Positions 12,421 through 17,137 of a DNA stretch of 39,563 nucleotides are shown in pieces. The stretch lies in assembly GCA_029211095.1 (NCBI GenBank), contig JARGFS010000009.1, positions 1 to 39,563 on the forward strand. Direction: 5' to 3'. Every line of letters begins with the position of its first letter. The stretch's first letter is position 1. The stretch is from a bacterium. Lineage in GTDB: Bacteria > Zixibacteria > MSB-5A5 > GN15 > FEB-12. The position numbers and the translations under genes are program-made. The notes beneath the pieces are model-generated. The model ran no database searches, was not told the origin of the DNA, and saw only the letters and a list, made by a program, of their open reading frames with translations.

Positions 12421-13485
12421 GTGACAAACGACATGGAGTCCGGGGAATATCAGGTTGACATCACCCTTGACTTGGAGCACAGCGCTCCATTTTACATCGT
12501 CGATGCAATACAAGAGGCATATGATGTCTGGGACTCACTGCGTCCAGGCGACGGACCGCCAAAAATACAAGTGGTATTGTCACCCGATGATACGGGATCA
12601 TGGTACAACGATCAATTCATTCATATCGAGAGTACTATAAATGAGGCTCATGCTTGGCCAGATACTTATGACAAGGACGTTATCATACATGAATATGGCC
12701 ATCATATCACAAAATCAATTTTGTTCTTCGACAATTACCCACTTGGCGTAGAGTCTCACTCATGGGATGAGCAACATACCGAGGGATTGGCTGCCTCTGA
12801 AGGCTTTTCCACTTTCTTTGCGAATGTAGTCCGTGATACGGCAGTCTTTCTTAACTTTTACAACGATTTTACGAAGTTTGCTTGGACGAACTCCGAGAGC
12901 GGTGAGTTTGGCGCTAACAATCTTGCCATTCCAGCTGGCTCGGGCAATAACTACGGTGATAGATGTGAGGCGGCGGTGGCTGGTATTCTCTGGGATATCT
13001 ACGATGATGATCCAATCACGGATGACTGGAGTACGTTTGGTGTTTGGCCTCAGCCCTATTATTCTATTCCCGATGGTATCGGTGATACCCTGGCAAAAGG
13101 CCCCGATAATATCCTAAAGGCTCTTATGGATCGCACTGTTGATGGGCACCGGCCAGATGATATTAATGAGCTCTGGGAGGCTTGGTTTTCTCTTCCATTT
13201 TTGGGGCACAGAAAGGGAATGATGGATATTTACAAAGAGCACGGGATTGTGGATTCCTGTTGTATTGGTCTGCGCGGAAATGCGGATGGTGATCCTAATG
13301 ACCAATGTGATATCTCTGACCTTACGTTTCTTGTTGATTTTGCGTTTGAGGGCGGCTTGCCGCCAGTTTGTTATCAAGAAGCTCTCGTAAGCAATATTTC
13401 GCCCGATATCTCAATCATTGATATTACCTATCTCATTAGCTATCTCTTTGGTGGTGGGCCCGCTCCCTATCCTTGCATTTTTTAG
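12421..13485 (+). CDS. C-terminal piece: zinc metalloprotease and dockerin-like tail
   Basis: 354 residues in the same frame as the preceding piece, starting at a GTG. The zinc motif HEYGHH has a downstream EGLAASEGFSTFF that can supply the third ligand, as in gluzincins. Upstream are the DSLRPGDGPPKIQVV and WPDTYDKDVIIHEYGH segments typical of secreted metalloproteases in this group. The tail begins CCIGLRGNADGDPNDQCD and has two dockerin-like units. The second (NISPDISIIDITYLISYLFGG) has lost some acidic calcium ligands. No signal peptide precedes this piece, so on its own it would stay in the cytoplasm. Confidence 0.65.
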   Translation: MTNDMESGEYQVDITLDLEHSAPFYIVDAIQEAYDVWDSLRPGDGPPKIQVVLSPDDTGSWYNDQFIHIESTINEAHAWPDTYDKDVIIHEYGHHITKSILFFDNYPLGVESHSWDEQHTEGLAASEGFSTFFANVVRDTAVFLNFYNDFTKFAWTNSESGEFGANNLAIPAGSGNNYGDRCEAAVAGILWDIYDDDPITDDWSTFGVWPQPYYSIPDGIGDTLAKGPDNILKALMDRTVDGHRPDDINELWEAWFSLPFLGHRKGMMDIYKEHGIVDSCCIGLRGNADGDPNDQCDISDLTFLVDFAFEGGLPPVCYQEALVSNISPDISIIDITYLISYLFGGGPAPYPCIF

Positions 13486-13570
13486 AGAATTATTAAACTC
13501 CCGTTTTTGGTGTTCTGGCGGCTTACATACTGTGTGGGTCGCTTTTTTACTCCTACTCTCTAATTCTCAC

Positions 13571-13599
13571 TTGACAACTGCACAAATGTGCAGTATTAT
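13571..13599 (+). promoter_or_regulatory. Near-consensus sigma-70 promoter
   Basis: TTGACA (13571-13576), a 17-base spacer and TATTAT (13594-13599). The spacer is almost entirely filled by a perfect palindrome, so the promoter should be repressible. Transcription would start about 13606 and run towards the zinc-ribbon protein and the helicase. Confidence 0.75.
13578..13593. promoter_or_regulatory. Candidate LexA (SOS) operator
   Basis: CTGCACAAATGTGCAG is a perfect 16-base palindrome. Its inner part, TGCAC-AAAT-GTGCA, exactly fits TGCNC-N4-GTGCA, which I recall as the LexA motif of Fibrobacter succinogenes, another FCB-group member. It sits between the -35 and -10 boxes, an effective repressor position. 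No lexA gene is in the window. Confidence 0.6.
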
Positions 13600-13805
13600 G
13601 GTTCTGAGCATCGAAGCTCTACTAAAGGCCCGACACAGTCGGTTTTTCTCCTTCGGACCGCGCCGGAGGGCATAGGTGCCAATGAAGAGAAGAGTGACAG
13701 AAGTATGTCATTCCAGCGTAGGCTGGAATCCAGCAGGACAGTATCTCTGCAATATGGAATTAAAGCAAAAGATAGACAATAACTCAGGATGAGGAGAGAT
13801 TGAAC

Positions 13806-14030
13806 ATGAGGACAGAGACTACAAGTGTGTACGGGGAGAGTGCCTCTCAGGTTGAGAATTTTGAGGACTACAGTTTTGATTTTATCCTCTCGGCTCGTAA
13901 CGATGCCCGTGAAAACGAGGATTACCAATGTCAGAATGCGGCCAGCTGCCCTGATTGTAACGGCGGGATGGTCCGTCTGGGGAGCTGCTTCAGTTGTCCC
14001 TCGTGTGGTTTTGAAAGCTGTCAGGCATAG
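13806..14030 (+). CDS. Small zinc-ribbon protein resembling the NrdJ C-terminal tail
   Basis: 74 residues starting at ATG, with AGGAG nine bases upstream and an in-frame stop just before (13773). The C-terminal third has Cys48-x2-Cys51, Cys61-x2-Cys64-x2-Cys67 and Cys72 in the layout CPDC-x9-CFSCPSCGFESC. This resembles the cysteine-rich tail of adenosylcobalamin-dependent class II ribonucleotide reductase (CPxCG ... C-x2-CG-x-x-x-C), which relays reducing power. No reductase catalytic domain is nearby. It could be a stand-alone redox or zinc protein, or the remnant of an nrdJ gene. It is the first gene after the LexA-like operator. Confidence 0.6.
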   Translation: MRTETTSVYGESASQVENFEDYSFDFILSARNDARENEDYQCQNAASCPDCNGGMVRLGSCFSCPSCGFESCQA

Positions 14031-14120
14031 CTGGCATAGCCAAATTGACTGGCATAGCCAGGTTGACTGGTATAGCCAGGTTGACTGGCATAGCCAGGTT
14101 GACTGGCATAGCCAGATTGA
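14031..14120 (+). repeat. Five tandem copies of an 18-bp repeat
   Basis: Five units of CTGGCATAGCCAGGTTGA run head to tail, each 18 bp, with one to three changes in the outer and third units. They start directly after the zinc-ribbon stop codon, where CAGGCATAG already resembles half a unit. Each unit contains TGGCATAGCCA, itself nearly palindromic (TGGC..GCCA), so every unit can form a small stem. Confidence 0.9.
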
Positions 14121-14353
14121 TTCCTGCGGACCGCGCCGCAGAATAGAGGTAGGGCAGCATCCCTGCCTGTCCTGAGCTAAGTCGAAGGGCGATGTTGCCA
14201 ATTGGAGATTGCAAGCCACAGATGAGACTGACTATGCCAGCTGGCAGGATCACGGGGATCCTGCCCTACGAAGAGTCAGGCTGCAGGTCGGCGTTTCGGC
14301 CCCGCCTTTAGGCAGGGGTGAAACCCGACAAATGGTTTTAAAAGGGGTATGAG
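14121..14353. other. Palindrome-rich gap before the helicase
   Basis: No gene. In order it holds CTGCGGACCGCGCCGCAG (perfect outer arms, same core as 13650-13669), TAGGGCAGCATCCCTGCC, and GTCCTGAGCTAAGTCGAAGG. Next come GGCAGGATC-ACGGG-GATCCTGCC (14243-14265) and an imperfect hairpin from GTCGG at 14287 to CCGAC at 14329 with the layout of the 8359-8407 element. These look like dispersed palindromic elements. Confidence 0.5.
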
Positions 14354-17137
14354 ATGCGAGTTTCAGATTTGGGAAAGTATGGAATGCCAGAACAGATAAT
14401 TGACATTTGGGAAAAGCGACAGGGAGCAACCCTGCTTCCGGTTCAGAGTCGGGCGGTACGGTCCGGCCTGCTGGGCGAGCGGATGAGTTGTTCGGGCTAT
14501 CAGCCGCTCAATATGCTGATCAGCGCCCCAACTTCATCCGGGAAATCGTTCTGCGCGGAAATGGCGGCTATCAAGGCGCTCTTGTCTCGGAAAAAAACAG
14601 TTATGCTTTTTCCTCTCAAATCATTGGCTGAACAAAAATACAAGCTGCTGCAAGAGAGTTATGCCGGGTTGGGGATCAAAATTATTATTGTCAGTGGGGA
14701 CCATCCGGAAAATGACCGGCTCTTTTTCAGCTCTGATTATCAGATTGCCCTCGTCATCTATGAGAAGTTTGACCTCCTTCTGACTTCATCGTTGGATACG
14801 CTCAAGAATATCGGTCTGGTTCTGGTCGATGAAATCCAGTCATTGTCGGAGCCGGGCCGCGGGGCTATCCTGGAACGTATTCTGACCAAGATTAAAGCCT
14901 CTGTCTATCAGCCCTCTTTGATTGGGCTCTCGGCTGTTATTTCCGGAAACGAAAGAACTCAGATTGCGGATAATAATATGGCTAATGTGGGTGGTTTAAC
15001 CACCTCGGCGGGTGGTTCAACCACCTTGACGAGTGGTTCAACCACTCTGGCCAGCTGGTTGGGGGCGGTCATCGTGGAGGAGACCGCCCGTCCAATCGAT
15101 CTGCTGCGTGGTGTGGCGGCCGAAGGTTCTTATCGGTACCGCTCCTACAACAGTCACCTTGATGGAGCCGAGCCGTTTGTTACGATTGAGCCGGGGGAGG
15201 AGAGCTTTGATGCTTTTATTCAGCAGATCAAGAGGGATGGAGGTTCAACGCTTGTTTTTCTTAAGTCACGCCGCGAGACAGTCGACTGTGCCTTCAGGAT
15301 GGCTGCTGCTGTTGACTGGGCTCCGGCTGCTCAGGCGATTGAACTGCTTGAGGAAGAAGAACCGTCATTTTTGATACGCTCACTCAAGCAGGCCATGTCC
15401 CGCGGAGTAGCTTTTCACAACTCTGACCTCTCTTTTAAGCAGAGAGAGATAGTTGAACAAGTCTTTGTAGATAAGCAGATTAAGGTACTCTTTTCAACTA
15501 CAACTTTATCTATGGGGGTAAACCTTCCGGCTGACACTGTCTATCTGGAGACAGTCAAGTATGCTTCGGGGGAGTACGGCAGTCGTCCTTCGTTAGTCCC
15601 GGTGAGCCGGGCTGAATTTGACAATATGTCCGGTCGGGCCGGTCGTCTTGGTTGTAAAGGGGAGTCGGAAGTTGGACGGGCCATCATAATGGCTGACAGC
15701 TCTTTTGATCGGGATGTTTTGTGGGAAAATTATATCGCTGACAATGATAGGTCTTCGGTACCGTCCGCTTTGGCTACGATGTCATCCGAGGATTGGGCTT
15801 TAAGCATGCTTGTTTCCGGACTGGCGGACAGCCGGGAGAGCCTTGGTTCTCTTTTTGGTCGGACTCTGTATGTCGCGACCGGTCAAACGATACCGGAAAA
15901 GGGGCTGGATCAAGCGGTTGAACTGCTTCAGCAGCAGGGTTTGGTTCTGTTTGATGAGGGGGTGTCGGCACTAATAGTGACTCCCCCGGGGAAGGCGGCG
16001 GCAACATCCTCTCTTTCCGTGCAGCAGGCGGCTCTCTTCAGGCGGAAACTGGAAACAGGTCTGCCCGATAATTTATCCGGCTGGATCGCGCTGGCTTTGA
16101 GTCTTCCTTCGATCAACCTGCCGCCATCCCTTCTGTCGCACTTTGAGCAGGTCAATAATAGGCCGCTTTTGATGCTGCATCAATTATTCCCTCATCTTGT
16201 GGATGATTGCCGATGGCTTCCTGGGGATTGCTTATCCGGCAAGCCGCTTTTGCGTCAGGAGGCGCTCTGTTTGAAATCTATGCTGCTTCTTTATAGCTGG
16301 TCAGAGTTGACTCCTTTACAAAAAATGGAGGAACGCTTCCAGGTGCATTTGGGGCAGATACTGAATCTTGGTGAAAGTGTTGCACATGTCATTACCGCCC
16401 TGGGTCGCCTTCTCGTGGCCAGCGAGGGGGACAGGCGGCTGGGGGAAAAGCTCCATGGATATGCTTTTTCTGTTCGTCATGGTCTGCCGCTAAAGTTCCG
16501 TGAGATATACAGGCACTTCGGCCACGAGCTGGGACGATCTGATTTTTTTGCTCTTGAGCAGGCCGGGGTTGAGAGCCTTGAACAGCTTTGCCAGTACGAT
16601 CAGGAAGCGCTCAAGGCAATCCCTTTATCTGAAAGTAAGTCATTGCAAATAAATAAGAAAATAGAAACACTTAAATTGGAGGTTGATATGCAGCCCGGTA
16701 ATTTTGATGTCAGAACAGAGCCTGGTAAAGGACAACATCGTGCTTTGTTGGTTCCGGATTCAGTCGAGATCGATGGTCGTCTTGAGGGGGAGCGGTATCT
16801 TATTAAGGTCAACGGTTTCCCGATTCGGCTGACCGGTAAGTCCTTTAAGTATTTTGCCAAGCTGGCCTACTCACGTCTGGTGGGGGATGCTGGCTGGATT
16901 TACAAAGAGGATATTGAAATGGGCTTTAACCAGGCGCGCTATTTGTACCGGATGAAGAACGAAGTCAACGCCGGACTGACCAATGGTTGGGATGTGGTGG
17001 AGAATAATCGTTTGGGTTATTACCGCTTGAATTGTAATCCCTCGCAGATCTCAATTGATTTTGATTCTCTTAAAGAGCATCCGGATTTTGAAGTTCGTCA
17101 ATTGGCCGAAGGGCATACCGGCTCGGTGGTGAATTAG
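14354..17137 (+). CDS. Hel308/Ski2-like superfamily 2 helicase with C-terminal winged helix
   Basis: 927 residues. Helicase motifs: I APTSSGKS (Lys64), Ia FPLKSLAEQK (86-95), II DEIQ (159-162), III GLSAV (191-195), a TTTLSMGVNLPA motif near 383-394, and VI SGRAGRLG near 426-433. A helix-hairpin-helix-like part follows at about 730-775 (LEQAGVESLEQLCQYDQEALKAI by position), as in Hel308. The last 100 residues (LIKVNGFPIRLTGKSFKYF ... YLYRMKNEV ... NNRLGYYRLN) have the OmpR/PhoB winged-helix pattern. AAGGGG lies six bases before the ATG. A 21-base, three-unit in-frame repeat sits at residues 213-233. Likely a 3'-5' DNA helicase in fork repair, perhaps SOS-controlled from 13571. Confidence 0.85.
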   Translation: MRVSDLGKYGMPEQIIDIWEKRQGATLLPVQSRAVRSGLLGERMSCSGYQPLNMLISAPTSSGKSFCAEMAAIKALLSRKKTVMLFPLKSLAEQKYKLLQESYAGLGIKIIIVSGDHPENDRLFFSSDYQIALVIYEKFDLLLTSSLDTLKNIGLVLVDEIQSLSEPGRGAILERILTKIKASVYQPSLIGLSAVISGNERTQIADNNMANVGGLTTSAGGSTTLTSGSTTLASWLGAVIVEETARPIDLLRGVAAEGSYRYRSYNSHLDGAEPFVTIEPGEESFDAFIQQIKRDGGSTLVFLKSRRETVDCAFRMAAAVDWAPAAQAIELLEEEEPSFLIRSLKQAMSRGVAFHNSDLSFKQREIVEQVFVDKQIKVLFSTTTLSMGVNLPADTVYLETVKYASGEYGSRPSLVPVSRAEFDNMSGRAGRLGCKGESEVGRAIIMADSSFDRDVLWENYIADNDRSSVPSALATMSSEDWALSMLVSGLADSRESLGSLFGRTLYVATGQTIPEKGLDQAVELLQQQGLVLFDEGVSALIVTPPGKAAATSSLSVQQAALFRRKLETGLPDNLSGWIALALSLPSINLPPSLLSHFEQVNNRPLLMLHQLFPHLVDDCRWLPGDCLSGKPLLRQEALCLKSMLLLYSWSELTPLQKMEERFQVHLGQILNLGESVAHVITALGRLLVASEGDRRLGEKLHGYAFSVRHGLPLKFREIYRHFGHELGRSDFFALEQAGVESLEQLCQYDQEALKAIPLSESKSLQINKKIETLKLEVDMQPGNFDVRTEPGKGQHRALLVPDSVEIDGRLEGERYLIKVNGFPIRLTGKSFKYFAKLAYSRLVGDAGWIYKEDIEMGFNQARYLYRMKNEVNAGLTNGWDVVENNRLGYYRLNCNPSQISIDFDSLKEHPDFEVRQLAEGHTGSVVN
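14990..15046 (+). repeat. Three in-frame palindromic repeats inside the helicase gene
   Basis: Near-palindromes GGTGGTTTAACCACC (14990-15004), GGTGGTTCAACCACC (15011-15025) and AGTGGTTCAACCACT (15032-15046) occur with an exact 21-base period. They encode the seven-residue units GGLTTSA, GGSTTLT and SGSTTLA just after helicase motif III. Confidence 0.9.

Follow-up and report, generated by a model that had tools for sequence, protein, structure and literature searches.

In the SOS response, the LexA repressor blocks the promoters of its targets, and its damage-induced self-cleavage releases them. The E. coli-type LexA box is CTGT-N8-ACAG, and the recognition helix of E. coli LexA carries the residues SPNAAEE. 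In Fibrobacter succinogenes, which belongs with the Zixibacteria to the FCB superphylum, the LexA box is reportedly TGCNC-N4-GTGCA. The classic SOS genes include lexA-dinB, dinB and imuA-imuB-dnaE2, and an SOS regulon in which recA has no box is unusual. The Hel308 helicase family is known best from archaea and metazoans.

A literature search found no LexA study in Zixibacteria; the comparison reported here provides a predicted SOS box for this phylum. We analysed a window of 39,563 nucleotides, corresponding to contig C241 of a 3.06-Mb genome (241 contigs, completeness 96.6%). Within a promoter at 13571-13599, it carries a palindrome that is almost certainly the predicted LexA box of the Zixibacteria DNA-damage response. 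Very probably, this palindrome is a LexA operator placed between the -35 and -10 hexamers of a two-gene SOS operon, which would encode a stand-alone NrdJ-type cysteine-rich protein and then a Hel308-like helicase. The LexA-box variant is new, and the predicted SOS operon is conserved and previously undescribed.

A palindrome within a promoter spacer

The promoter consists of TTGACA (13571-13576), a 17-nt spacer (13577-13593) and TATTAT (13594-13599), with 11 of the 12 consensus bases. As the earlier note had described, it encloses the palindrome ACTGCACAAATGTGCAGT, made of perfect 8-bp arms flanking a central AA (ACTGCACA-AA-TGTGCAGT). The term "perfect palindrome" used there holds for the arms, in which every base pairs, but the 16-mer that it quoted is imperfect at two central bases. 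A promoter scan gave TTGACA-N17-TATTAT as the sole sigma70-like site within 13300-14500, and an Rfam search of 13400-14500 returned no match. The 354-aa ORF upstream (12421-13485) ends, by eye, in dockerin-like repeats and has no Pfam match. The features of the locus are listed in Table 1.

Table 1. Features predicted at the operator and in the two downstream genes.
Feature	Position	Strand	Basis
Terminator-like hairpin between upstream gene and promoter	13517..13543	+	Promoter-region scan
Sigma70-type promoter TTGACA-N17-TATTAT	13571..13599	+	TTGACA -35 hexamer in 51/59 orthologous loci
Predicted LexA operator ACTGCACAAATGTGCAGT in promoter spacer	13577..13594	+	Register as in lexA promoters
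Operator core TGCACAAATGTGCA	13579-13592	+	Comparative
74-aa stand-alone NrdJ-type cysteine-rich zinc-ribbon protein, CPDC-x9-CxxCxxCGxxxC	13806..14030	+	NCBIfam PRK08665
927-aa Hel308-like Ski2-family helicase	14354..17137	+	Pfam DEAD/Helicase_C, NCBIfam, AlphaFold
Helicase C-terminal domain, probable OmpR/PhoB-type winged helix	16754..17134	+	Conservation, Foldseek

Within the whole window, TGCAC-N4-GTGCA with at most one mismatch is present at this site only. About half of the shuffled windows also give a chance match at this level, so the palindrome by itself is weak proof and the case depends on comparative evidence. For scoring, a position weight matrix (PWM) was built solely from 30 lexA promoters of the same genome and its relatives. 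With 41.4 bits, the window site stands at the upper end of the range of the lexA sites (26.7-40.6 bits); the runner-up elsewhere in the window, not overlapping it, has 1.9 bits.

In the window, about 0.77 kb separate the box from the start of the helicase, and both the leader and the intergenic region hold inserted repeats. The operator might control no more than the small protein or a short leader transcript, the helicase being separately promoted or not co-transcribed in this strain. Such an arrangement would fit a terminator-like hairpin after the promoter and the repeat-rich stretch, about 320 bp long, that separates the two genes. We nevertheless consider it unlikely: the gap is shorter in most relatives, the sister species is without the inserts, the scan of 13300-14500 shows no second sigma70-like promoter, and in two distant loci (L226 and L227) the helicase begins about 120 bp after the box. 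This distance would leave no room for the small ORF, which points to the helicase as the most constant target of the operator.

Several repeats were observed around the two genes. The leader (13629-13800), largely missing in the sister species (L024), includes the terminator-like hairpin CCGACACAGTCGG-TTTTT at 13630-13642, which could attenuate transcription, together with a palindrome, GTCATTCCAGCGTAGGCTGGAATCCAG, resembling an interspersed repeat. Tandem 18-bp repeats (CTGGCATAGCCAGGTTGA, 14031-14120) separate the small ORF from the helicase gene; the sister species lacks them or has them in reduced form. An inverted-repeat element (GTCGGCGTTTCGGCCCCGCCTTTAGGCAGGGGTGAAACCCGAC, about 14287-14332) just 5' of the helicase gene also occurs in the sister species and has no match in Rfam.

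The predicted LexA box across Zixibacteria

The Pfam model detected one LexA in the genome of the window, with the domains S24 and LexA_DNA_bind. Its promoter, TTGACA-GA-TGAACATCTGAGCA-GTATTAG, has the same hexamer and register as the window site, with a related but imperfect dyad. The register TTGACA-N2-[TGNACA-N2-TGNGCA]-GTATT was found at this promoter and at all 35 unique lexA loci. When 30 lexA sites were aligned, TTGA was present in all 30 and TTGAC in 29, several box positions were invariant, and GTA followed the box.

We then considered the orthologues of the window helicase. The operator was found upstream of 59 of the 60 unique orthologues with enough upstream sequence; the lone exception (L179) has just 543 bp upstream, while boxes elsewhere lie up to 822 bp away. 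Among these 59 boxes, 34 are identical to TGCACAAATGTGCA, and 48 form perfect 6+6 dyads, compared with 3 of the 35 lexA boxes. As these lexA and helicase loci belong to related species within a single phylum, their counts are not independent events; the stronger argument is that the operator is retained intact down to about 32-36% protein identity between helicases.

Of 133 Zixibacteria genomes, 94 contain the exact pattern TTGACN3TGN2CN3TGNGCAGTA, and none contains its reversed control. The loci newly found by this search (L267-L294) are mostly lexA or helicase loci by BLAST, the two exceptions being the start of a small-ORF-helicase pair lying at the end of a contig (L268) and a dinB locus (L272). 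From the lexA loci, the helicase orthologues and this pattern search, the predicted Zixibacteria LexA box is about TGNACA-N2-TGNGCA, within the promoter spacer. The exact combined promoter-operator is absent from 17 of the 18 genomes G115-G132 (families f16-f19, same class), where the LexA box may have changed.

The earlier note had expected this site to define the SOS box of the lineage. By comparison it does, in the relaxed form given above instead of the strict TGCNC-N4-GTGCA, and with recA left outside. The strict motif occurs at five places in the genome of the window, only the window site being relevant, and at neither lexA nor recA. Such a scan misses lexA because its consensus is too strict for the lexA sites, which are usually imperfect dyads.

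The segment STNG[VI]R of the LexA recognition helix is invariant across the 35 distinct LexA sequences compared, which is consistent with one constant box across families. The box also precedes imuA-imuB-dnaE2 in one relative (L155, G009:C10), and a similar box is found at an imuB-like / imuA-imuB-dnaE2 locus of another (L265, G010:C265). In relatives, it is also present at lexA loci that hold dinB as well, and at L272 it stands before a small gene and a DinB-like ORF. Its position before classic SOS genes in relatives supports LexA as the binder.

Another dimeric repressor could occupy the site, such as the helicase acting on its own promoter through its OmpR-like domain, the resemblance to lexA promoters then being secondary. 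The C-terminal domain of the helicase is indeed conserved and probably DNA-binding, judging from its model, and the helicase operator surpasses the lexA operator in dyad symmetry. This explanation is improbable, however, as the same box and register occur at every lexA locus and at the imuAB-dnaE2 and dinB loci, where LexA is expected, and as the LexA recognition helix does not vary.

Extent of the predicted regulon

In the genome of the window, only two exact promoter-operator matches were found, lexA and the window operon. A scan allowing up to 3 mismatches gave three further matches, all with 3 mismatches, which is as many as the control gives. With a relaxed 18-mer at 3 mismatches, the 47 matches were indistinguishable from the 40 of the reversed control. 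No box was found when we looked for it at umuDC of this genome.

The box was found in none of the recA upstream regions of 30 genomes, the best score (5.4) reaching neither the 95% level of shuffled sequences (6.6) nor the lowest lexA score (17.0). When whole recA loci were scanned, a single score of 15.5 was obtained. On these sequences, recA is predicted not to belong to the regulon through the Zixibacteria LexA box. Since the genomes are mostly MAGs, fragmentation could account in part for the absence of other regulon members; the recA loci examined had upstream sequence.

By contrast with recA, the Hel308-like helicase is, in this comparative genomics, the most constant member of the predicted regulon besides lexA. 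Its assignment to the SOS regulon, proposed earlier from the window only, is upheld by the operator upstream of its orthologues, in the register common to lexA.

In three relatives, an exact LexA-type box lies 19-120 bp upstream of SocA_Panacea antitoxin-like genes (L151 2050-2625; L152 2041-2523, minus strand; L153 2311-2913, minus strand). This suggests that Panacea toxin-antitoxin modules may be under SOS control in these three relatives.

A Hel308-like helicase

The helicase belongs to the Ski2 family and is closest to Hel308. It matches the NCBIfam models PRK02362 (E = 5.7e-73) and Hel308 (E = 7.9e-57) with 246.4 and 192.9 bits, below the curated cut-offs of 887 and 1200 bits, respectively. 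Because it is far below the curated Hel308 cut-offs, we call it Hel308-like and not Hel308. Its AlphaFold model (pLDDT 83) has the Hel308 fold and matches archaeal Hel308 structures with a target-normalised TM of 0.83-0.90, as well as the POLQ helicase domain. The "repair-type helicase" of the earlier reading can thus be narrowed, from NCBIfam and AlphaFold, to a Hel308-like protein with an added C-terminal domain.

The C-terminal 125 residues or so are the most conserved part of the protein (LTGKSFKY, NQARYLYR, ENNRxGYYRL). Pfam gave nothing meaningful for this domain, and the best hit of a PDB sequence search was a response regulator (E = 0.11). Modelled alone (pLDDT 87), the domain has its best Foldseek matches among OmpR/PhoB-family effector domains, with E = 0.012 at best. 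Given such weak scores, an OmpR/PhoB-type winged helix is probable but not proven.

The helicase was found in 39 of the 41 near relatives searched, and its named relatives are overwhelmingly Candidatus Zixiibacteriota MAGs. Three orthologues (L208, L216 and L236) come from MAGs whose titles read Calditrichota/Calditrichaeota or Ignavibacterium; they may be mislabelled Zixibacteria or cases of transfer.

PADLOC HamB models match the helicase core, as they would if the operon were a mobile anti-phage defence system with a Hachiman-like helicase, incidentally SOS-regulated. This is very improbable: the helicase is nearer to Hel308 than to HamB and nearly always present in near relatives, no HamA-like partner was recognised, and the neighbouring gene is the NrdJ-tail-like ORF, without PADLOC match. 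That the palindrome lies over the promoter by chance is refuted by its conservation at the orthologous loci and by the empty reversed control, even though a window of this size often yields one near match.

A stand-alone NrdJ-type tail protein

The small protein matches NCBIfam PRK08665 (E = 6e-5), the match being confined to the NrdJ tail and to the C-terminus of the small protein. What had been read as a reductase-tail-like zinc ribbon is indeed of this type, and can be refined to a stand-alone copy of the cysteine-rich tail of the class II ribonucleotide reductase (RNR) NrdJ. Its sequence contains the six-cysteine array expected for a zinc or redox function. The genome also encodes a full NrdJ that keeps its own tail, EICPDCSEAMNYDSGCYYCKFCGYSNC, with a cysteine spacing identical to that of the small protein.

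A small ORF stands between operator and helicase in all 27 near-relative loci having upstream sequence; the proteins range from 61 to 150 aa, and the NrdJ model matches the ORF independently in many genomes. Compared with the sister species, it shows 21 synonymous-only and 4 nonsynonymous codon changes, and is thus under purifying selection.

Zinc binding and electron transfer have been connected with the equivalent six cysteines of S. nassauensis NrdJ, in which transfer can also take place between subunits (PMC5704485). A separately expressed cysteine-rich domain (CRD) did not restore the activity of a CRD-deleted NrdJ (PMC5704485); we therefore only infer that the small protein could act in trans, as donor or competitor.

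Proposed mechanism

In an undamaged cell, a LexA dimer on the promoter spacer would block RNA polymerase. Upon damage, RecA on single-stranded DNA would trigger LexA self-cleavage and the operator would empty, allowing transcription of both the lexA operon and the window operon, the latter presumably as one transcript. By analogy with operator strength in E. coli, LexA probably has a higher affinity for the window operator than for its autoregulatory site, since the former is a near-perfect dyad and the lexA operator usually is not; the operon would then be derepressed later, or only at heavier damage. Like Hel308/HELQ, the helicase might act on stalled forks or on recombination intermediates and remodel them. 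The small protein might adjust RNR, as an electron shuttle or as a competitor of the NrdJ tail, so that dNTP supply would be matched to repair.

These steps could form a minimal, recA-free LexA regulon whose constant core is lexA and a dedicated operon; this operon would join a bacterial Hel308-like fork or recombination helicase with an RNR tail acting in trans to modulate RNR during damage. We put this forward tentatively, as a possibility that is rather doubtful in its complete form. If true, dNTP supply would be tied to helicase repair in an SOS output of a new type. A role of the stand-alone RNR tail protein in the DNA-damage response is now directly testable.

Comparison with known systems

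The window site fits exactly the consensus reported for Fibrobacter. The lexA sites of Zixibacteria differ from it, as they need only TGNACA-N2-TGNGCA, are usually imperfect dyads, and come with a recA that the box would not control. With the E. coli-type system, the locus shares the outer ACTG-N10-CAGT spacing and the domain architecture of LexA, while the inner bases differ (ACTGCACA...TGTGCAGT in the window) and the recognition helix reads STNGVR instead of SPNAAEE.

Among the Hel308/HELQ/POLQ helicases, the window protein shares the fold of Hel308, with about 23% identity. Unlike Hel308, the protein is bacterial, its gene is preceded by a predicted LexA box, and it has an additional C-terminal domain; motif IVa, given as F/YHHAGL in PMC10484726, has the variant AFHNSDLS here. 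The six cysteines of the small protein share their order with the NrdJ CRD (PMC5704485), and their CPDC-x9-CxxCxxCGxxxC spacing is that of the NrdJ tail of the same genome. The CRD is fused to the catalytic chain in NrdJ, whereas the small protein is a free-standing ORF apart from nrdJ.
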